Assembly (NCBI GenBank): GCA_020348925.1
Contig: CP070758.1
Location: forward strand, 580,246 to 588,418
Reading direction: 5' to 3'
Origin: Gemmatimonadota bacterium
GTDB taxonomy: Bacteria > JBHIER01 > G020348925
DNA length: 8,173 nt
Numbering within the stretch: position 1 is the stretch's first letter; each line of letters opens with the position of its first letter. Both the position numbers and the translations under genes were made by a program. A model generated the notes under the pieces. The model saw only the letters and a program-made list of their open reading frames with translations. It had not been told where the DNA came from and made no database searches. Shown piece by piece: positions 1 through 7,651 of this stretch.

Positions 1-153
1 GCGGATGCCACCGGCTATCAATTCTCTCTGGAGGAGGATGGCTATTGGATGAAGACCGACGACTTTGCCGAAAAACCACTTTTACCGACAGAGCTGGTGG
101 CGAGAATCGAAAAACTCTTGGAAAAAACGAAGGAAGAGGGGGCATCGGAATAG
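1..153 (+). CDS. Response regulator receiver domain, C-terminal end only
   Basis: This is the last 50 codons of a gene that begins before the window; the reading frame starts at base 1 and ends at TAG 151-153. The peptide contains an EKPLLPTELVARIEKLL stretch. This matches the end of a CheY-like receiver domain, where the conserved lysine-proline pair precedes helix 5 and an 'ELVARIEKLL' helix. The acidic phosphorylation site lies outside the window. No output domain follows, so the protein either ends with its receiver or has its receiver at the C-terminus. Only 68 bases separate it from the sensor kinase at 222, so the two may be cotranscribed and work together. The family call rests on a short segment. 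Confidence 0.6.
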   Translation, partial: ADATGYQFSLEEDGYWMKTDDFAEKPLLPTELVARIEKLLEKTKEEGASE

Positions 154-221
154 GCCGGCATCAGCACGATCCAATAGTCCACATGGTGCTCACGACCTTT
201 TAAATATTACGTATCAATACC

Positions 222-1754
222 ATGAGTAACTCCATACCGACCCAATCAACGAAGGAAAAAGAACGCATCCTCGTCGTCGATGACGAACGCGGTATTCGCC
301 AAGGCTGTCGTCGGATTCTCCAGAGCGAAGGGTTCGAGGTCGAGACGGCTGAGAACGGAAACGAGGGCCTGGCCAAAGCGAAAGAATCGCCCTACGACCT
401 CATCCTCATCGATCTCATGATGCCGGGAATGGGAGGCCTGGAATTGCTGCATCACATCCGCGAGCTCGATCCGGAAATCATTGCCCTCGTCATTACAGGA
501 TACGCCACTGTGGAGACGGCAGTCGAAGCCATGAAACAGGGGGCGTACGATTATATACCGAAACCCTTCACCCCGGATCAGCTCATGGCTGTGCTGAACA
601 GAGGGCTTGAAACGAGAAGACTCCGTTTCGAACGTCAGCAGCTCCTCGAAGAGCGAGACAGAAAACTCCTCGAAGTGGCCAATGAAAAATCTCAGACCCG
701 GACAATTGTCGGGTGCATGGCCGATGGTGTGCTCGTTGTCAATAGGGAGGGCCAACTCGTCCTGTGGAACCCTGCCGCCCTGGCACAGCTCAATCTCAAG
801 AACACAACCGAAACAGGCAAACCTCTCTCCCACTATATCCAAAACGATGATCTCCAAAAACTGATCGATTACGCCCTCTCCCCCGAGGGGTCCGGCTATA
901 CAATGATATCCCAGGAGATAGCCATCGGCCATGACGGAAAGAAAGTGCTCATGGCCGATGCGGCGGCAGTGAAAGAGGATATGGGAGAGACGTTGGGGGC
1001 AGTGGCCGTCCTGCGCGACATATCCGAACTCATTGAAATCGATCGGGTGAAGTCACAGTTCGTTTCCATGGTGGCCCATGAACTTCGCACCCCTCTGGCC
1101 GCCATTGAGGGATACATTGATACCTGCCTCGCCTGTGCCGCCGGAGACGACCCCGAGACGCATCGAAAGATGCAGCAGCGGGCCAAGGAGAGGGCTCACT
1201 CCCTTCTTGACCTGGTCAACGACCTTCTCACGGTCTCAAAAATTGAAGCCGGAAAAATCGCCAAGAAAAAGGAACCGTTAGCAGCCCGAGAGCTCATAAC
1301 GAGATCGGTGGAGTTGCTCAAAGAGGAAGCAGCCCGAAAGAAGATCTCAGTGGACGTAAAAATACCCGAGCGCTTCCCTGATATGGTGGGAGACAGGAAT
1401 GACCTCGAGCGGGTTCTCATCAATCTTTTAGCAAACGCCCTGAAATACAATTCGGAGGGCGGGCGTGTCACTGTTACAGTCTCGGCAGACGATGACTTTG
1501 TGGCCACAAGTGTTGAGGATAATGGATTTGGCATTCCCCCGGAGGATGTTCCGAGGATCTTTGACGAGTTCTTTCGGGTAGAGGATGAGAAAAGACGATA
1601 TATAACCGGAACCGGATTGGGACTGTCGATCGTAAAAAAGACGGTAGAATCACATTTCGGCCGGATCGAAGTGAAAAGCGAGCTGGGCAAAGGCAGTACG
1701 TTTACGATCTTTATTCCAAAATGGAGACCGGACGACAGTACTAAAAGAGGCTGA
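222..1754 (+). CDS. Soluble sensor histidine kinase with N-terminal receiver domain (REC-PAS-HisKA-HATPase)
   Basis: The 510-residue protein has four parts. An N-terminal receiver (about 14-127) has acidic residues D20/D21, phosphoacceptor D64 in a DLMMPGMGG context, T92 and K114. A charged helical linker (about 128-158) follows. A PAS-like domain (about 160-270) begins near GCMADGVLVVNREG. The kinase core has phospho-histidine H286 in AHELRTPL, an N box near 397-410 (NLLANALKYN), a G1 box at D433-G437 (DNGFG) and a G2 box at G463-G467 (GTGLG). No membrane segment or signal peptide is visible, so it should be cytoplasmic and sense an internal cue or accept phosphate through its receiver. All catalytic residues are intact. 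The ATG at 222 lacks a clear Shine-Dalgarno sequence, but the receiver begins 14 residues later, so the start cannot be far off. The gene lies between a response regulator fragment and the Nfn fusion. That it controls these genes is inference, and the ligand is unknown. Confidence 0.93.
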   Translation: MSNSIPTQSTKEKERILVVDDERGIRQGCRRILQSEGFEVETAENGNEGLAKAKESPYDLILIDLMMPGMGGLELLHHIRELDPEIIALVITGYATVETAVEAMKQGAYDYIPKPFTPDQLMAVLNRGLETRRLRFERQQLLEERDRKLLEVANEKSQTRTIVGCMADGVLVVNREGQLVLWNPAALAQLNLKNTTETGKPLSHYIQNDDLQKLIDYALSPEGSGYTMISQEIAIGHDGKKVLMADAAAVKEDMGETLGAVAVLRDISELIEIDRVKSQFVSMVAHELRTPLAAIEGYIDTCLACAAGDDPETHRKMQQRAKERAHSLLDLVNDLLTVSKIEAGKIAKKKEPLAARELITRSVELLKEEAARKKISVDVKIPERFPDMVGDRNDLERVLINLLANALKYNSEGGRVTVTVSADDDFVATSVEDNGFGIPPEDVPRIFDEFFRVEDEKRRYITGTGLGLSIVKKTVESHFGRIEVKSELGKGSTFTIFIPKWRPDDSTKRG

Positions 1755-1850: not shown

Positions 1851-4208
1851 ATGAGTAGGAGTGACGCTCGTACAAAGAATAAAGACGCTGGCAACAAAGA
1901 TACGGAACACAAGCATGATGAGACGGTCGGTTGCGGCCTCGAGCGGGTGCGGCCCATTGGCAGTGAGAGCCGAATCGTGGCGGACAGGGTCATCGCCAAG
2001 GATATAAAGCTCTTTGAGATCGACGCTCCGTTGACGGCGAAAAAGGTGAGACCCGGTCAGTTCGTGGTGCTCAGGGCCGACGATTACAGCGAACGGATCC
2101 CCCTCACCGTCGCCGACAAGGATGAGGGAAAGGGCACCATTACGGTCATCTTTCAGGAGATCGGAGCATCCACACTGAAATTGGGAGAGCTCAAGGAGGG
2201 TGACTGGATCCTGGATCTGGTCGGTCCTTTGGGAGAACCGACTGAGATCGACAACGTTGGGACGGTGGTCTGTGTCGGCGGCGGCGTTGGCGTGGCACCG
2301 CTCCATCCCATCACGAAGGGGATGAAGGAAGCCGGCAATACCATCATCTCCATCATCGGTGCCCGAAGCAAGGATCATCTCATTCTCGAAGAGGAGATGA
2401 GGGACCTCTCGGATGAAATGTACATCACGACTGACGACGGATCTTACGGTCATCACGGTTTCGTCACCGATGAGCTGAAGCGATTGATCGACGAGGGGAG
2501 GCATATCGACGAGGTGGTCGCCATCGGTCCGGTCGTCATGATGCGGGCCGTGGCAGAGGTGACCCGGCCTCACACCATCAAGACCATCGTCAGTCTGAAT
2601 TCCATCATGGTCGACGGAACAGGCATGTGTGGGGCCTGCCGGGTGACGGTCGGCGGGGAGACCAAGTTCGTCTGTGTCGACGGTCCGGAGTTCGACGGGC
2701 ACCAGGTGGACTTTGACGAGCTGATCGTGCGGCAGGAGATGTACTCCAGGGAGGAGCACCGGGCCCTCTGGCATTACGAGTGCGAAACGTGCGCCGAACC
2801 TGCAGAGAAAAAGAAGGTAAAAGCAGACCGGATATCCATGCCGCAGCAGGATCCCCGGGCGCGTGTTCACAATTTCGATGAGGTGGCTCTGGGATACACG
2901 CGGGAGATGGCCATGGAGGAGGCTTCCCGCTGTTTGAACTGCAAGAAATCCCCCTGCATTGCCGGCTGTCCGGTGAGCATCGACATCCCGGCCTTCATCG
3001 AGAGAATACAGAAGGGCGACTTCATGGGGGCCATCCATAAGATTAAAGAGATGAACAGCCTCCCCGCAGTGTGTGGCCGCGTCTGTCCCCAGGAGGAACA
3101 GTGCGAGCTCGCCTGTGTTCTGAACAAGAAAGGCAGGCCGATCGCCATCGGCCGTCTGGAACGGTTTGTGGCGGACTATGAGTTCGAGCAGGGGGATATA
3201 CGCGTGCCGAAAGTCCCACCCTCGACAGGCAAACAGGTGGCTGTTGTCGGGGCCGGTCCCGCCGGATTGACCGTCGCCGGGGACCTGGCCAAGCTCGGCC
3301 ACAAGGTGACCGTCTTCGAAGCGCTGCACAAGCCGGGGGGTGTTCTTGTTTACGGCATCCCGGAGTTTCGCCTGCCCAAGCGCATTGTCCAGCGCGAAGC
3401 CGATTACATCCGGAGATTGGGCGTCGACATGAAACCCAGCTTTGTCGTGGGCAAGCTGCAGTCCGTTGACGAATTGCTCTCCAACGGCTACGATGCGGTC
3501 TTTATCGGCACAGGGGCTGGGCTGCCTTATTTTATGAACATCCCCGGTGAGAACCTCAACGGTGTTTATTCGGCCAACGAATTCCTCACTCGGAACAACC
3601 TCATGAAATCATACCTCTTCCCCGAGTACGATACTCCCATACGTATCGGGCGCAACGTGGCCGTTGTCGGGGGGGGGAACGTGGCCATGGACGCGGCCAG
3701 GGTGGCTATCAGGCTGGGTGCGGACAAGGTCTATTGTGTCTATCGAAGAGCGCGGGAGCAGATGCCGGCCCGGAACGAGGAGATTGAGAACGCCCTTGAT
3801 GAGGGCATCATCTTTAATCTTCTGACAAATCCTTTAGAAATTATTGGTGATGAAAAGGGCTGGGTCAAGGGCATGGAATGCATCAAGATGGAATTGGGAG
3901 AGCCGGACGCATCGGGGAGACGGAGGCCGGTGCCAATCAAGGGCTCCGAACATATTCTGGATGTCAATATTATCATCATGGCCATCGGTCAGGGCCCGAA
4001 CCCCTTGGTCACGACCACGACGCCGGGTATGGAGCTCAATAAGTGGGGTAACATCGTCGCCGATGCTGAAACGGGCAAGACAACCAAGGAAGGTGTCTTT
4101 GCCGGTGGGGACATTGTTACCGGTGCTGCCACCGTCATCCTGGCCATGGGAGCGGGCAAGAAGGCGGCCGAAGCTATCGACCAGTACCTGAAGGATGGGA
4201 AGTGGTAA
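1851..4208 (+). CDS. nfnAB: Fused NADH-dependent reduced-ferredoxin:NADP+ oxidoreductase (NfnA-NfnB in one chain)
   Basis: The 785-residue protein joins two normally separate subunits. Residues 1-37 are a hydrophilic lysine/aspartate-rich extension. Residues about 38-310 are NfnA/SudB-like: an FAD-binding R82-x-PLT motif, a nucleotide-binding G143-GGVGVAP loop, and a [2Fe-2S] site with D255, C260, C263 and C275, where Asp takes the place of the first Cys of the related PyrK motif. A short linker follows. From about 330 the chain is NfnB/GltD-like: Cys361, 364, 369, 373, 408, 412, 418 and 422 with E419 for two [4Fe-4S] clusters, an FAD-binding GAGPAGL at 467-473, an NADP-type GGGNVAMDAAR from 607, and the C-terminal GGDIVTGAATV FAD motif. 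In characterised Nfn enzymes, flavin-based bifurcation couples ferredoxin, NADH and NADPH interconversion in the cytoplasm. NfnA homologues are also annotated as sulfide dehydrogenase or FNR-like, and NfnB as glutamate synthase small chain. The Asp ligand and the fusion favour Nfn. A nine-G run at 3669-3677 encodes three glycines and does not break the frame. Confidence 0.92.
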   Translation: MSRSDARTKNKDAGNKDTEHKHDETVGCGLERVRPIGSESRIVADRVIAKDIKLFEIDAPLTAKKVRPGQFVVLRADDYSERIPLTVADKDEGKGTITVIFQEIGASTLKLGELKEGDWILDLVGPLGEPTEIDNVGTVVCVGGGVGVAPLHPITKGMKEAGNTIISIIGARSKDHLILEEEMRDLSDEMYITTDDGSYGHHGFVTDELKRLIDEGRHIDEVVAIGPVVMMRAVAEVTRPHTIKTIVSLNSIMVDGTGMCGACRVTVGGETKFVCVDGPEFDGHQVDFDELIVRQEMYSREEHRALWHYECETCAEPAEKKKVKADRISMPQQDPRARVHNFDEVALGYTREMAMEEASRCLNCKKSPCIAGCPVSIDIPAFIERIQKGDFMGAIHKIKEMNSLPAVCGRVCPQEEQCELACVLNKKGRPIAIGRLERFVADYEFEQGDIRVPKVPPSTGKQVAVVGAGPAGLTVAGDLAKLGHKVTVFEALHKPGGVLVYGIPEFRLPKRIVQREADYIRRLGVDMKPSFVVGKLQSVDELLSNGYDAVFIGTGAGLPYFMNIPGENLNGVYSANEFLTRNNLMKSYLFPEYDTPIRIGRNVAVVGGGNVAMDAARVAIRLGADKVYCVYRRAREQMPARNEEIENALDEGIIFNLLTNPLEIIGDEKGWVKGMECIKMELGEPDASGRRRPVPIKGSEHILDVNIIIMAIGQGPNPLVTTTTPGMELNKWGNIVADAETGKTTKEGVFAGGDIVTGAATVILAMGAGKKAAEAIDQYLKDGKW

Positions 4209-4385: not shown

Positions 4386-4748
4386 ATGATACTCCAAGAA
4401 ATAATGACCATCCTCAGCGCGGAGGTTCTGGCGTGCAAGAATTCCCTCGACATCGAAGTCAACGCCGTCAAAGCATCGGATCTCATGAGCGATGTCTTGA
4501 CCATGAGCGACTCCGGTGTCCTGCTCCTGACCGGATTGACCAACGTCCAAGCTGTCCGGACGGCTGAGATCGCGGAACTCTCAGCCATTGTCTTTGTTCG
4601 GGGCAAGAGACCGGAACAGGATACCATCGAACTCGCTGAGCAGAAAAATATACCGCTCTTGGCCACTCAATTGCCACTCTATGAATCGTGCGGCCTCCTC
4701 TTTCAGAAAGGACTCATGGGCACGTCTCAGCCGGTGAAGGATTCGTGA
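4386..4748 (+). CDS. DRTGG-type domain protein, first copy
   Basis: The 120-residue protein appears to be a single DRTGG-like domain (the domain type also found in some phosphotransacetylases). Visible family features are V-x-ASDLMSDVL at about residues 28-38, a central LLLTGLTNVQAVRTAE strand-turn-helix, and a later segment with IVFVRGKRP followed by AEQKNIPLLAT and a YE pair. The literal DRTGG pentapeptide is absent. No catalytic motif, membrane span or signal peptide is seen. The domain is thought to bind ligands or regulate, but its function in stand-alone proteins is not established. It starts the five-gene module, and its stop codon lies three bases before the next ATG, which suggests translational coupling. 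It resembles the second DRTGG-type gene at 6555 in length and layout. The family assignment is from recalled patterns, not a profile search. Confidence 0.75.
   Translation: MILQEIMTILSAEVLACKNSLDIEVNAVKASDLMSDVLTMSDSGVLLLTGLTNVQAVRTAEIAELSAIVFVRGKRPEQDTIELAEQKNIPLLATQLPLYESCGLLFQKGLMGTSQPVKDS
4736..4741 (+). promoter_or_regulatory. Ribosome binding site of the RsbW-like gene, inside the preceding gene
   Basis: GAAGGA lies 10 bases before ATG 4752 and within the last codons of the upstream DRTGG-type gene, consistent with coupled translation. Confidence 0.6.
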
Positions 4749-4751
4749 ACC

Positions 4752-5192
4752 ATGCCCGATAACAATGTTTTTGAGCAAAGCTTCCCGGTCAAGGGTGGTG
4801 ACTTCGCCAATGCCGGCGAGGCATCGTGTCAGGTCAAGGAGATCCTCAAAGAGATCGGCGTCGGTGCGGACATCATTCGACGTGTGGCCATCGCCGCTTA
4901 CGAGGCCGAAATGAATGTGGTCATGTACGCCAGGGAAGGCGAAGTAAGAGTGAGCATTTCTCCGGAGATGGTCAATCTCATTATTGAGGATGAAGGTCAA
5001 GGCATAGAAAACATCGATTTGGCCATGCAGGAGGGGTATTCCACCGCCACGGAGGAGATGCGGGAGATGGGCTTCGGAGCAGGGATGGGATTGCCCAACA
5101 TGAAAAAAAACTCCGACGAATTCAAAGTCACATCAGAGGTTGGAAAAGGGACGAAAATAGACATTCGAATTAGAATGGAGAAGGAAACATGA
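4752..5192 (+). CDS. RsbW/SpoIIAB-like ATPase (anti-sigma-factor-type serine kinase fold)
   Basis: The 146-residue protein is a lone GHKL ATPase domain. The N box is at about 48-60, with E51 and N55 in the EAEMN context and Y59 where many relatives have His. The G1 box is D80-G84 (DEGQG). The G2 lid is G107-G113 (GFGAGMG), followed by LPNMKK. No dimerisation or phospho-histidine domain is present, so it is not a two-component kinase. Characterised relatives bind a sigma factor and phosphorylate an STAS-domain antagonist. Neither an STAS protein nor a sigma factor is in the window, so its partner is unknown. Its place directly before the hydrogenase-like gene, in one operon, suggests it acts with that protein (inference). 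The ATP-binding residues look intact. The start is fixed by the GAAGGA site. Confidence 0.85.
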   Translation: MPDNNVFEQSFPVKGGDFANAGEASCQVKEILKEIGVGADIIRRVAIAAYEAEMNVVMYAREGEVRVSISPEMVNLIIEDEGQGIENIDLAMQEGYSTATEEMREMGFGAGMGLPNMKKNSDEFKVTSEVGKGTKIDIRIRMEKET

Positions 5193-5206
5193 GACCTGGG
5201 CGATAG

Positions 5207-5239
5207 AAGTCCACCTTTCGCAAAGTGAGACTTAAAATA
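5207..5239. repeat. Palindromic repeat between the ATPase and hydrogenase-like genes
   Basis: The arms 5207-5218 (AAGTCCACCTTT) and 5222-5233 (AAAGTGAGACTT) form an imperfect stem with nine of twelve pairs around a CGC loop. Together with its flank it matches 4289-4321 at 24 of 33 positions. It fills most of the 63-base gap inside the operon and could lower read-through or shape mRNA ends. No T tract follows, so termination is not indicated. Confidence 0.6.
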
Positions 5240-5255
5240 TAGGATCTCAAATAAC

Positions 5256-6548
5256 ATGCCTGAACAACTCCACTCAATAAAAATAGACGAGGGCAGATGC
5301 GTCGGTTGCATCACCTGCATGAAAGCTTGCCCGACGAAAGCCATCCGGGTGCGGAACAGAAAAGCCGTCATTATTGGGGAACGGTGCATCGATTGCGGCG
5401 AGTGTTTCCGGGTGTGCCCGCACCGGGCTGTGACACCTCTAACGACATCCGCCTCAGATCTGGAAGCGTTTAAAATGACCATCGCCCTCCCCTCGCCGGT
5501 ATTGTACAGCCAGTTCGGACGAAATGCAATGCCGAACGAAATATTGTTGGCCTTGAAAACGATCGGGTTCAGTTACGTTTTTGACGAGGCCTGGCTGTGC
5601 GAAATGGTGACGACCGCTATAGAGGAATATCTTGAAACCCAGGACGGTCCGCGGCCCCTCATCTCATCGACCTGTCCGGCCGTGGTTCGGCTCATCGCCA
5701 TGAGGTATCCGAATCTTTTGCCCCTCATCATTCCCATCGACGCCCCCAGAGAGGTAGCGGCCAAGAGATACAGGACGATGAAGGGCAACAAGCACGGCCT
5801 TTCACCGAAGGAAATCGGCGTCATCCACATCACCCCCTGTCCGGCGAAGATGATCTCCATCAACCGTCCCCTCGGCACCGACAAATCCCATTTGGACGGG
5901 GCCATCTCCATCCGGGACATCTACGGACCCATCCTCACAGTCCTAAAGGACTTGGATGAGGACATGATTATCCAGCAATCGAGCGGTGTGGGCATCGGCT
6001 GGGCCATGACCGGGGGCGAGATCAGAGGGCTGAATATGGATACCTGTCTGGCCGTGTCCGGTGTCCAGGACGTTATGACCATACTGGACGATGTCGAGGC
6101 GGGTAAGCTCAAGGGCATAGACTATCTCGAATGTTTAATCTGTCCGGACGGCTGTATCGGAGGTCCCTTGACTGTCGAAAACAGACATCTGGCCAAGAAC
6201 AGGGTTGAAACCCTGGTCAAAATGTTCGGCGAGAAAACGAGGGTCAGCCGGGAGCTGGTCAAACGACAGTATAAGGCGGGGTTCTTCTCTTTGAAACAAC
6301 AATTGGAAGCTTCGCCGTTACCGCCTCTGGATCCAGATCAAACCAAAGCCATTGAAAAGGCACGCGAGCGAAAGGAGATCGTTCAAAAACTCCCTGGAAC
6401 GGACTGCGGCGCATGCGGAGCTCCGGACTGTCGCACGTTGGCCGAAGATGTTGTGTTGGGACACGCGCTCCTTTCAGACTGTCCCTTCATGGAGTCAAAA
6501 AACGATGTTCTCAAATCCAGTGGATGTCATCCGAAAACACGGAAGTGA
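5256..6548 (+). CDS. [FeFe]-hydrogenase-like iron-sulfur protein, probable sensory type
   Basis: The 430-residue protein has three parts. First, two [4Fe-4S] ferredoxin motifs: C15, C18, C21, C25 and C44, C47, C50, C54. Second, a hydrogenase large-subunit domain (about 75-350) with the three H-cluster loops: L1 C140 (STCPA), L2 C195 (TPCPAK) and L3 C296 and C300 (CPDGC). Third, a C-terminal Fe-S domain with C384, C387, C392 and C409. All four expected H-cluster cysteines are present. T139 replaces the proton-relay cysteine next to the L1 ligand, S201 replaces the Glu of the usual CxxKxxE, and the L2-L3 interval is shorter than in catalytic enzymes. This pattern and domain order resemble sensory (group C/HydS-like or group D) proteins, but no PAS or phosphatase domain follows. 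It probably senses H2 or redox state in the cytoplasm (inference); slow catalysis is possible. Maturation would need HydEFG, not seen here. AGGA at 5241-5244 supports ATG 5256. Confidence 0.88.
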   Translation: MPEQLHSIKIDEGRCVGCITCMKACPTKAIRVRNRKAVIIGERCIDCGECFRVCPHRAVTPLTTSASDLEAFKMTIALPSPVLYSQFGRNAMPNEILLALKTIGFSYVFDEAWLCEMVTTAIEEYLETQDGPRPLISSTCPAVVRLIAMRYPNLLPLIIPIDAPREVAAKRYRTMKGNKHGLSPKEIGVIHITPCPAKMISINRPLGTDKSHLDGAISIRDIYGPILTVLKDLDEDMIIQQSSGVGIGWAMTGGEIRGLNMDTCLAVSGVQDVMTILDDVEAGKLKGIDYLECLICPDGCIGGPLTVENRHLAKNRVETLVKMFGEKTRVSRELVKRQYKAGFFSLKQQLEASPLPPLDPDQTKAIEKARERKEIVQKLPGTDCGACGAPDCRTLAEDVVLGHALLSDCPFMESKNDVLKSSGCHPKTRK

Positions 6549-6554
6549 GGAAAC

Positions 6555-6899
6555 ATGCAACTCAAAGAGATTTTTGAAAAGCTCGATCTCGAGGTCAAAG
6601 CCGGCCAAGACGGCCTTGATCACTTCGTGACCGGTGGGTATGTGAGTGACCTTTTGAGTGACGTTATCGCCAACAGTCGCAAATGTGACCTCTGGATCAC
6701 GCTCCAGATTCATCAAAACATAGTGGCCGTGGCGACGTTGAAGGAGCTGGCCGGAATTATTCTCATCAACGGCAAGGAGCCGGCCGACGCAACGATATCA
6801 AAGGCCGAAGCGGAGGGGGTCCCCATCCTTGTCAGTCCGCTGACCGCCTATGAGATCGTCTCTCAGCTTCACGATTTGGGCATATCCGGAAAACGGTAA
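6555..6899 (+). CDS. DRTGG-type domain protein, second copy
   Basis: The 114-residue protein is another single DRTGG-like domain. It has VTGGYVSDLLSDVIA at about residues 25-39, a DLWITLQIHQNIVAVA strand-helix, IILINGKEP, then AEAEGVPILVS and a final AYEI helix. These elements follow the same order and spacing as in the copy at 4386, but identity is low, so the two are diverged paralogs rather than a recent duplication. No catalytic residues are evident. A GAGGA stretch at 6547-6551 overlaps the hydrogenase-like stop codon and sits close to ATG 6555, and the TAA stop overlaps the next ATG by one base. Both junctions suggest tightly coupled translation. A stable complex of the two DRTGG proteins is possible but only inferred. 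Confidence 0.75.
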   Translation: MQLKEIFEKLDLEVKAGQDGLDHFVTGGYVSDLLSDVIANSRKCDLWITLQIHQNIVAVATLKELAGIILINGKEPADATISKAEAEGVPILVSPLTAYEIVSQLHDLGISGKR

Positions 6900-7651
6900 T
6901 GCTCCGCACCTTCCGGGCCGACCTTCACATCCACACCTGCCTCTCCCCCTGTGCGGACATTGACATGTCTCCGAGCGCCATTTTGGAGACTGCGGAGCAG
7001 AAGGGACTGGACATCATTGCCATCTGCGATCACAATTCCGCCGAGAACGTCGCTGCTGCGGTTCGGGCTGCATCGGACCGAGAACTCACGGTTCTCTGCG
7101 GCATGGAGATCGCATCTCAGGAAGAGGCCCACATCATCGCCCTTTTCGACACACCGGCTGAAATATTGGAGCTTCAAAGGACCGTCTATGCTCATCTTCC
7201 CAAAGGGATGGCTGTTGAGATGAATGTCGACGATCAGATCGTGGTCAACGAATTCGACGAGGTCGAGGGTTTCAACACCAAATTGCTCATCGGGGCGACC
7301 GATTTATCGGTCCATGATATTGTGGACATAGTTCATAACATCGGCGGTCTGGCCATCGCCTCCCACATCGACCGGGAGATGTTCAGTATTGTCGGGCAAC
7401 TGGGATTTATCCCGGAGGATCTCCCCCTGGATGCTGTAGAAATTTCTGCGAACACGCCTCTCGAGGAGGCCAGGGAAAGCTTTGCCATGCACGGAAACTT
7501 CCCCATGATCACCTCCTCCGACGCCCATTTTCTCAATGACATCGGTAAAGTCAACACTGACTTTTTCATGGCGGAACCGACGACGGAGGAGATGAAAAAG
7601 GCTTTCCTCAATGTTGACGGCAGCAGTGTAATTTACTCGGAACCAGTCTGA
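6899..7651 (+). CDS. PHP-domain metal-dependent phosphoesterase-like protein
   Basis: The 250-residue protein carries the metal-ligand motifs of the PHP superfamily: DLHIHT (H10, H12), CDHN (D44, H45), GMEI (E70), EAHIIALF (H78), ASHIDR (H156) and SSDAH (D208, H210). The active site therefore looks complete and should bind up to three metal ions. Characterised members hydrolyse phosphate esters such as histidinol phosphate, nucleotides or nucleic acids; the substrate here cannot be read from sequence. The N-terminal LHIHTCLSPCA stretch with C14 and C18 is, from memory, typical of the PHP proteins beside hydrogenase-like genes. The segment at about 100-145 lies between the two motif halves. 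ATG 6899 overlaps the previous stop codon by one base, so this is the last gene of the coupled module. No signal peptide is visible. Confidence 0.87.
   Translation: MLRTFRADLHIHTCLSPCADIDMSPSAILETAEQKGLDIIAICDHNSAENVAAAVRAASDRELTVLCGMEIASQEEAHIIALFDTPAEILELQRTVYAHLPKGMAVEMNVDDQIVVNEFDEVEGFNTKLLIGATDLSVHDIVDIVHNIGGLAIASHIDREMFSIVGQLGFIPEDLPLDAVEISANTPLEEARESFAMHGNFPMITSSDAHFLNDIGKVNTDFFMAEPTTEEMKKAFLNVDGSSVIYSEPV

Follow-up and report, generated by a model that had tools for sequence, protein, structure and literature searches.

A conserved DRTGG-HATPase-HydS-DRTGG-PHP gene module beside NfnAB in a Gemmatimonadota draft genome and its possible role in redox signaling

TamHydS, a HydS protein of group D (M2e), has been biochemically characterized (PMC8163306), and M2e genes were already known upstream of trimeric bifurcating hydrogenases (PMC3561251). 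Group D HydS proteins have been studied as H2 sensors. Relatives of HydABC that lack an H domain have been described as the Bfu family (PMC9304861), and a eukaryotic hydrogenase-like protein without a catalytic H-cluster, Nar1/CIAO3, works in Fe-S assembly (PMC12991071). Here, we describe a module of five genes in an 8173-bp stretch of DNA from a Gemmatimonadota bacterium (GCA_020348925.1, CP070758.1, positions 580,246 to 588,418), hereafter the window, in which a group D HydS-like protein is encoded together with a SpoIIAB/RsbW-like ATPase (HATPase), two DRTGG proteins, and a PHP metal phosphoesterase.

This unit is real and widespread. In our preferred reading, to which we give an even chance, it is a redox-signaling set serving NAD(P)H/ferredoxin bifurcation, built around an H-domain protein that would lack the [2Fe] subcluster. 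What appears to be new is a HydS clade tied to H-domain-free bifurcating enzymes, mostly in genomes without detected H-cluster maturation genes. Literature searches by the parts of the module found no description of the five-gene set, and a text search of the Bfu paper (PMC9304861) returned no PHP, kinase, or sensory, but only hisK in a figure legend. The initial annotation had stated that the locus matches no characterized pathway; this is partly outdated, its central protein being of a characterized type already reported upstream of bifurcating hydrogenases.

The module and its conservation

The window is one complete contig of the draft host genome, bounded exactly at both ends by 100-N spacers. 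The genome is not a closed chromosome; it is a draft of short contigs joined by such spacers and is estimated to be 96.3% complete. Seven genes can be recognized with confidence: a hybrid kinase, an NfnAB fusion, and the five module genes, which run in the same direction (+) over positions 4386-7651 with intergenic gaps of 3, 63, 6, and -1. The initial annotation had given this layout from the letters alone; a list of open reading frames (ORFs) reproduces its coordinates, Pfam supports its families, and the Nfn fusion it named, which lies upstream, proves to be real. The module features and the probable partner enzyme are as follows (aa, amino acids).

4386-4748 (+), DRTGG protein 1, 120 aa; Pfam PF07085, 28.3 bits (cut-off 25.2)
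4752-5192 (+), SpoIIAB/RsbW-like HATPase, 146 aa, predicted Ser/Thr protein kinase or partner-binding ATPase; Pfam HATPase_c, 42.3 bits
4902-4916 (+), N-box EAEMN of the HATPase (E51, N55); conservation across 21 sequences
5256-6548 (+), group D (M2e) HydS-like H-domain protein, 430 aa; Fe_hyd_lg_C 105.7 bits, PF04060 49.2 bits, alignment, tree
5298-5417 (+), two N-terminal [4Fe-4S] motifs of HydS (C15, 18, 21, 25, 44, 47, 50, 54); Pfam, alignment
5664-5678 (+), HydS H-cluster motif L1, SSTCP: T139 at the C299 position, C140 as the C300 ligand; alignment
5832-5849 (+), HydS H-cluster motif L2, TPCPAK: T193 at the M353 position, C195 as C355, K198 as K358; alignment
6141-6155 (+), HydS H-cluster motif L3, CPDGC: C296 as C499, C300 as C503, with L294 (M497 position) just ahead; alignment
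6405-6482 (+), C-terminal Cx2Cx4Cx16C cluster motif of HydS (C384, 387, 392, 409); sequence reading, invariant in 83 sequences
6555-6899 (+), DRTGG protein 2, 114 aa; Pfam PF07085, 25.3 bits, barely above the 25.2 cut-off
6899-7651 (+), PHP + PHP_C metal phosphoesterase, 250 aa; Pfam
1851-4208 (+), NfnAB fusion, 785 aa, probable partner enzyme, 177 bp upstream of the module; PRK12778, 1128.7 bits (cut-off 1103)

Loci were found by scanning the contigs of genomes with a three-sequence alignment, a single-sequence scan having returned none. The iterated HydS profile drifted into HydA and HydB; a fixed profile was used for the locus counts. The resulting 80 loci, which are the best matches to three seeds and therefore not a random sample, come from Bacillota, Aminicenantes, Chlorobi, Ignavibacteria, Bacteroidetes, Acidobacteria, Sumerlaeota, Atribacteria, Coatesbacteria, and Stahlbacteria.

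The order DRTGG-HATPase-HydS-DRTGG-PHP, on one strand, is kept in 54 of the 68 loci with enough flank, from about ten phyla, and the median gaps in conserved loci are -4, 15, -4, and -4. The HATPase gene stands ahead of HydS in 66 of these 68, and some of the departures from the order are gene-calling artifacts (e.g., locus L030; L numbers are our labels). Such a grouping is far beyond chance: the five families travel together rather than being scattered independently, and they form one conserved unit, as the initial annotation had proposed. Its mention of relatives beside HydABC in Clostridia is likewise supported. Two or three HydABC-type genes lie nearby in 42 of the 54 long-flank loci, mostly with a second HATPase gene and a 2Fe-2S ferredoxin gene, and 12 of the 54 fully flanked loci have no HydABC/Bfu gene nearby.

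The second HATPase gene, present at the 3' side of PHP in many relatives, was not found in the window, where the 522 bp between PHP and the contig end (7652-8173) hold no credible gene. Promoter and terminator scans gave no signal above shuffles. Apparent fusions of DRTGG with HATPase (L039), HydS with DRTGG (L083), and PHP with HATPase (L091) were not used as evidence, because each comes from one draft sequence in which neighboring genes run together, which a lone indel error suffices to produce. A group C-like H-domain protein is also encoded near the module in L072 and L110, and in the one phylum surveyed H-domain proteins were uncommon (14/60 genomes).

Judged by its sequence, the central protein is of a known kind, a group D HydS. 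It shows all the tested group D (M2e) features described for TamHydS (PMC8163306): two N-terminal [4Fe-4S] motifs, the H domain, and the C-terminal Cx2Cx4Cx16C, with no PAS domain by Pfam or alignment. The pocket has T at the C299 position, T at M353, and L at M497, and the alignment shows K358 and all four [4Fe-4S]H cubane cysteines to be retained. Residue numbering was checked via the HydS of T. wiegelii, whose cysteines 20, 379, and 404 fall on the published TamHydS residues. In the tree, which contains no group A or B rows, the window HydS falls within an 83-row HydS-D set that also holds T. wiegelii HydS, apart from the group C row.

The AlphaFold model of DRTGG protein 1 (predicted local distance difference test score, pLDDT, 94) has a fold matching 2ioj with Z 17.0 and the regulatory part of C. 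perfringens pyrophosphatase with Z 14.0. In its motif SDLMSDV, D32 and S35 are invariant in 27 sequences, and D32, L34, and S35 are invariant in 26 sequences of DRTGG protein 2, so that both share the invariant D and S of a DLxS motif. The DRTGG domain of CBS-pyrophosphatases is required for diadenosine polyphosphate binding (PMC7226116).

For the HATPase, the nearest NCBIfam families are SpoIIAB/RsbW and the closest solved relatives are anti-sigma F factors. It keeps the catalytic glutamate and the N/G1/G2 nucleotide boxes of that family, with E51, E53, N55, and core residues of the DxGxGI and GFGAG boxes invariant in 21 sequences. No STAS antagonist or sigma factor is encoded in the module or the window; the remaining genome was not searched for them. 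In the PHP protein, H10, H12, D44, H45, E70, H78, H156, D208, and H210 are invariant in 24 sequences, and its relatives by sequence in the Protein Data Bank (PDB) include EndoQ, a 5'-3' exoribonuclease, and other PHP phosphoesterases. The initial annotation is supported in its assignment of a "sensor" carrying an H domain, of an ATPase of the kinase type, and of a metal phosphoesterase, with conserved catalytic residues.

Partner enzymes, maturases, and genome neighbors

In the tree, the window groups with L033-L035 in a four-row group (support 100/99) inside a 14-row clade (96/85). No H-domain HydA lies beside the module in any member of this clade, the flanks of L040, L091, and the window being incomplete. 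In eight loci (L036-L039, L041-L043, and L069), the module is followed downstream by a NuoEF-type (Bfu) complex without an H domain, whose "HydA" combines a NuoG-type N-terminus with the C-terminal HdrA half. On contigs that reach far enough, HdrC, HdrB, and the N-terminal HdrA half are encoded on the upstream side of the module. These Hdr-type assignments were made with profiles for L037 and by similarity for the others. The last gene of L069 is cut at the contig end, and L040 ends after PHP, leaving only its upstream Hdr genes visible. HdrA2 appears split around the module in the eight loci, which would place the module inside the enzyme's operon. A TSCCP filter meant to pick out true HydA was dropped because true HydA enzymes here have TSCSP.

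Closer to the window, the corresponding Bfu protein of L033 and L034 has a GltD/NfnB-like domain. L035 encodes a NuoG-like subunit with NfnA and NfnB genes after it, so that NfnAB adjoins the module there too.

The genes that build the H-cluster were sought in the host draft genome with searches in each of which one control genome scored above the cut-off, T. maritima being among the positive controls. HydG gave no match in this genome, HydE reached 19.8 bits against a cut-off of 254.6, and HydF gave GTPase-domain matches only, the best at 100 bits against 325.6. Neither a [NiFe]-hydrogenase nor a group A/B or HydABC-type [FeFe]-hydrogenase was found in the draft; PF02906 matches two proteins only, the window HydS and a group C HydS-kinase, both of sensory type. 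The initial annotation had remarked that no HydABC follows for at least 522 bases. That distance is set by the contig end, since the window is one complete contig; no HydABC-type enzyme was found elsewhere in the genome either.

We also searched the 50 other genomes behind the loci for HydG, HydF, and PF02906, taking a match better than 1e-50 as a catalytic-type H domain. HydF was present in 25 of the 37 genomes with a catalytic-type H domain and in 2 of the 13 without one (Fisher p = 0.0026, uncorrected for shared ancestry), and it was missing from 11 of the 14 genomes of the window's clade. NiFe-family matches are present in most of the checked clade genomes, and the statement that there is no hydrogenase at all therefore applies to the window's genome, not to the clade.

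The Hdr-linked HydS proteins differ at two sites. In all nine (L036-L043 and L069), the N-terminal ligand C18 is replaced by R or H, a change seen in no other of the 83 sequences, and Y or H occupies the M497 position, as otherwise only in L082 and L091. Both changes would be compatible with a lost [2Fe] subcluster in these proteins. Being related, the nine should be counted as one or two events. The window HydS shows neither change (C18 is kept and L stands at M497), so the case for the window rests on the missing maturases, and that for its relatives on both lines.

Two further features of the window concern its surroundings.

222-1754 (+), receiver-PAS-HisKA-HATPase hybrid kinase, 510 aa, possible output or cross-talk; Pfam, associated with the module by position only
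1-419 (no strand), contig-end overlap with the contig of a group C HydS-histidine kinase; 98.1% identity, 8 mismatches

Window positions 1-419 match the last 419 bases of another contig (L004, 6604-7022) end to end. This contig carries the group C HydS-histidine kinase and a receiver protein gene, and the sequence composition of the two contigs is consistent with one genome. Most simply read, they are probably genome neighbors split by strain variation; the alternative is a two-copy repeat. Joining them suggests the order HydS-C/kinase, receiver, receiver-PAS-kinase, NfnAB, DRTGG, HATPase, HydS-D, DRTGG, PHP.

The group C-type HydS (L004, 7289-9349, -) is fused directly to HisKA-HATPase, with no PAS by Pfam. 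By sequence reading, its residues at the C299, M353, and K358 positions are F, G, and R, and its motif L3 has Cx2C rather than Cx3C spacing. A multihaem cytochrome-like protein is encoded upstream of it (14009-15550, -).

Elsewhere, the host genome holds two Bfu-type operons without an H domain, one lying by an HdrA-like fragment, the other containing a NuoF-GltD fusion. In the latter (L138, 9399-12515), a NuoF-type BfuB and a GltD/NfnB-like domain share a single 1038-aa frame, accompanied by BfuC, 2Fe-2S ferredoxin, and BfuA genes and divergent from a Ser/Thr kinase gene. In the former (L137, 6607-11091), BfuC, BfuB, a short BfuA, and the start of an HdrA-like gene are found on a contig cut at both ends; the 1109-aa and 357-aa frames of L137 extend across N spacers and, as drawn, do not represent real genes.

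Proposed redox sensing and its alternatives

The initial annotation offered a choice between H2 and redox state as the input. H2 sensing through an H-cluster does not fit a host in whose draft HydE, HydF, HydG, and catalytic [FeFe]- and [NiFe]-hydrogenases are absent and whose clade is linked to H-domain-free enzymes. Redox state, its alternative, fits better and is probably what is sensed, because here and in a set of relatives the module adjoins enzymes by which NADH, NADPH, and ferredoxin are balanced, and cofactor-building genes were not found.

In our proposed mechanism, the sensor would be the HydS-like protein, whose probable cofactors are a pair of N-terminal [4Fe-4S] clusters, the cubane [4Fe-4S]H, and the cluster at the C-terminus; the [2Fe] subcluster would be absent, since no maturation enzymes were found. 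HydS may report the ferredoxin/NAD(P)H redox state through a change in shape. In response, the RsbW-like ATPase would bind a DRTGG protein or phosphorylate it, with the invariant S35 as a candidate site. Reversal of this modification, or removal of a nucleotide ligand, may fall to the PHP protein. Relatives of the DRTGG proteins bind adenine nucleotides, and the DRTGG proteins would pass the signal on to the Nfn/Bfu enzyme; the client is likely the adjacent NfnAB, perhaps together with the two Bfu complexes without an H domain that the genome encodes elsewhere. Four elements of this scheme are what we infer, namely, redox sensing, the absence of [2Fe], phosphorylation, and the client enzyme, as distinct from the observed conservation, gene order, catalytic residues, partner types, and lack of maturases and hydrogenases in the draft.

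Several points weigh against this scheme, and some of them favor a normal TamHydS-like H2 sensor whose HydEFG genes would sit in unassembled contigs, and which, with a complete H-cluster, would sense the H2 of neighboring organisms. The main weakness is that, in a draft of short contigs with about 4% missing, linked hydEFG genes could vanish together. The genome of the nearest relative (L033/G001) holds HydF, HydG, and catalytic-type H-domain proteins. The pocket of the window HydS is still TamHydS-like (T299, T353, L497, and K358), and all four [4Fe-4S]H cysteines are kept. The HydF statistic takes no account of shared ancestry, and 12 of the 37 genomes with catalytic-type H domains also miss HydF, as drafts often do. 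Finally, we found no literature report of phosphorylation, interaction, or regulation by module proteins in any organism.

The absence of HydF from those 12 genomes (L049, L053, L059, L060, L067, L081, L087, L097, L099, L100, L105, and L112) is most likely due to missing contigs. For the window, the H2 sensor has against it that three maturases and the catalytic [FeFe]- and [NiFe]-hydrogenases are missing simultaneously, and that HydF is also missing in most of the clade, whose members belong to other phyla. We consider this explanation unlikely.

Less probable again is that the module aids the assembly or maturation of large bifurcating flavoenzymes, by Fe-S or cofactor insertion or quality control in the manner of Nar1 (PMC12991071), with the ATPase as a GHKL chaperone-like protein and not a kinase. 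Its strong operon linkage to Fe-S-rich enzymes of several catalytic types with a BfuBC core in common, and its lack of a DNA-binding output gene, would suit such a role, but the RsbW/SpoIIAB-type catalytic glutamate and the PHP phosphoesterase suggest reversible modification, and about a fifth of fully flanked loci lack a nearby HydABC/Bfu gene.

The idea to which we give least credence, that NfnAB adjoins the module by chance and the module regulates another target (e.g., nucleotide or general stress signaling via the adjoining two-component proteins), draws on the 177-bp gap, the receiver-kinase gene upstream of NfnAB, and the module not being seen beside either Bfu complex of the host, but has to contend with NfnAB adjoining the module in L035 and with the GltD-type Bfu of the nearest relatives L033 and L034.

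Returning to redox signaling, we tentatively extend it, at somewhat below even chances, to a bacterial HydS branch that dropped [2Fe] and became an H2-independent Fe-S sensor, controlling Nfn and Hdr/Nfn-type Bfu enzymes via an RsbW-type kinase, DRTGG, and PHP; in the host, a group C HydS-kinase and a group D module would flank the same NfnAB. If the clade keeps the module without maturases, H2 sensing alone cannot be its conserved job, and the redox state (ferredoxin/NADH) common to all client enzymes would likely be what it really reads. The regulation of electron bifurcation in anaerobes would then become directly testable, and the module names four partner proteins that lay outside the study of the cited TamHydS papers.

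Comparison with known systems

TamHydS of Thermoanaerobacter mathranii (PMC8163306, PMC13104023) and the window HydS have in common the domain order, the Cx2Cx4Cx16C motif, and a flanking HATPase gene, and are alike in the loss of C299, the change of M353 to Ser/Thr, and that of M497 to Leu. They differ in that the window HydS belongs to a separate clade, adjoins NfnAB and not HydABC, and has a host without detected hydrogenase or maturases; the group A bifurcating hydrogenase common alongside group D, although not strictly defining, was not found in the host genome. The C-terminal cluster of TamHydS is not reduced by H2 and is reduced by a stronger reductant (PMC13104023), which would be consistent with a ferredoxin-level sensor by analogy, though it is not proof of one.

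The likeness to group C (M2f) HydS extends to the H domain and the C-terminal FeS domain, the window protein having no fused PAS or kinase. Nar1/CIAO3 is likened to HydS by description, and we know of no kinase or phosphoesterase partners of Nar1/CIAO3 comparable to those of the module. Members of the Bfu family (HydABC, Nfn-Bfu, and Hdr-type; PMC9304861) are the usual client operons of the module, not the module itself.

As for the other proteins, DRTGG protein 1 folds in the same way as the DRTGG domain found in CBS-pyrophosphatases (3l2b, 3l31), but the DRTGG proteins of the module stand alone, without CBS or catalytic domains. The module ATPase shares with the SpoIIAB/RsbW kinases the GHKL family, the N/G1/G2 boxes, and the catalytic Glu, whereas the place of the antagonist is occupied in the module by the DRTGG proteins.

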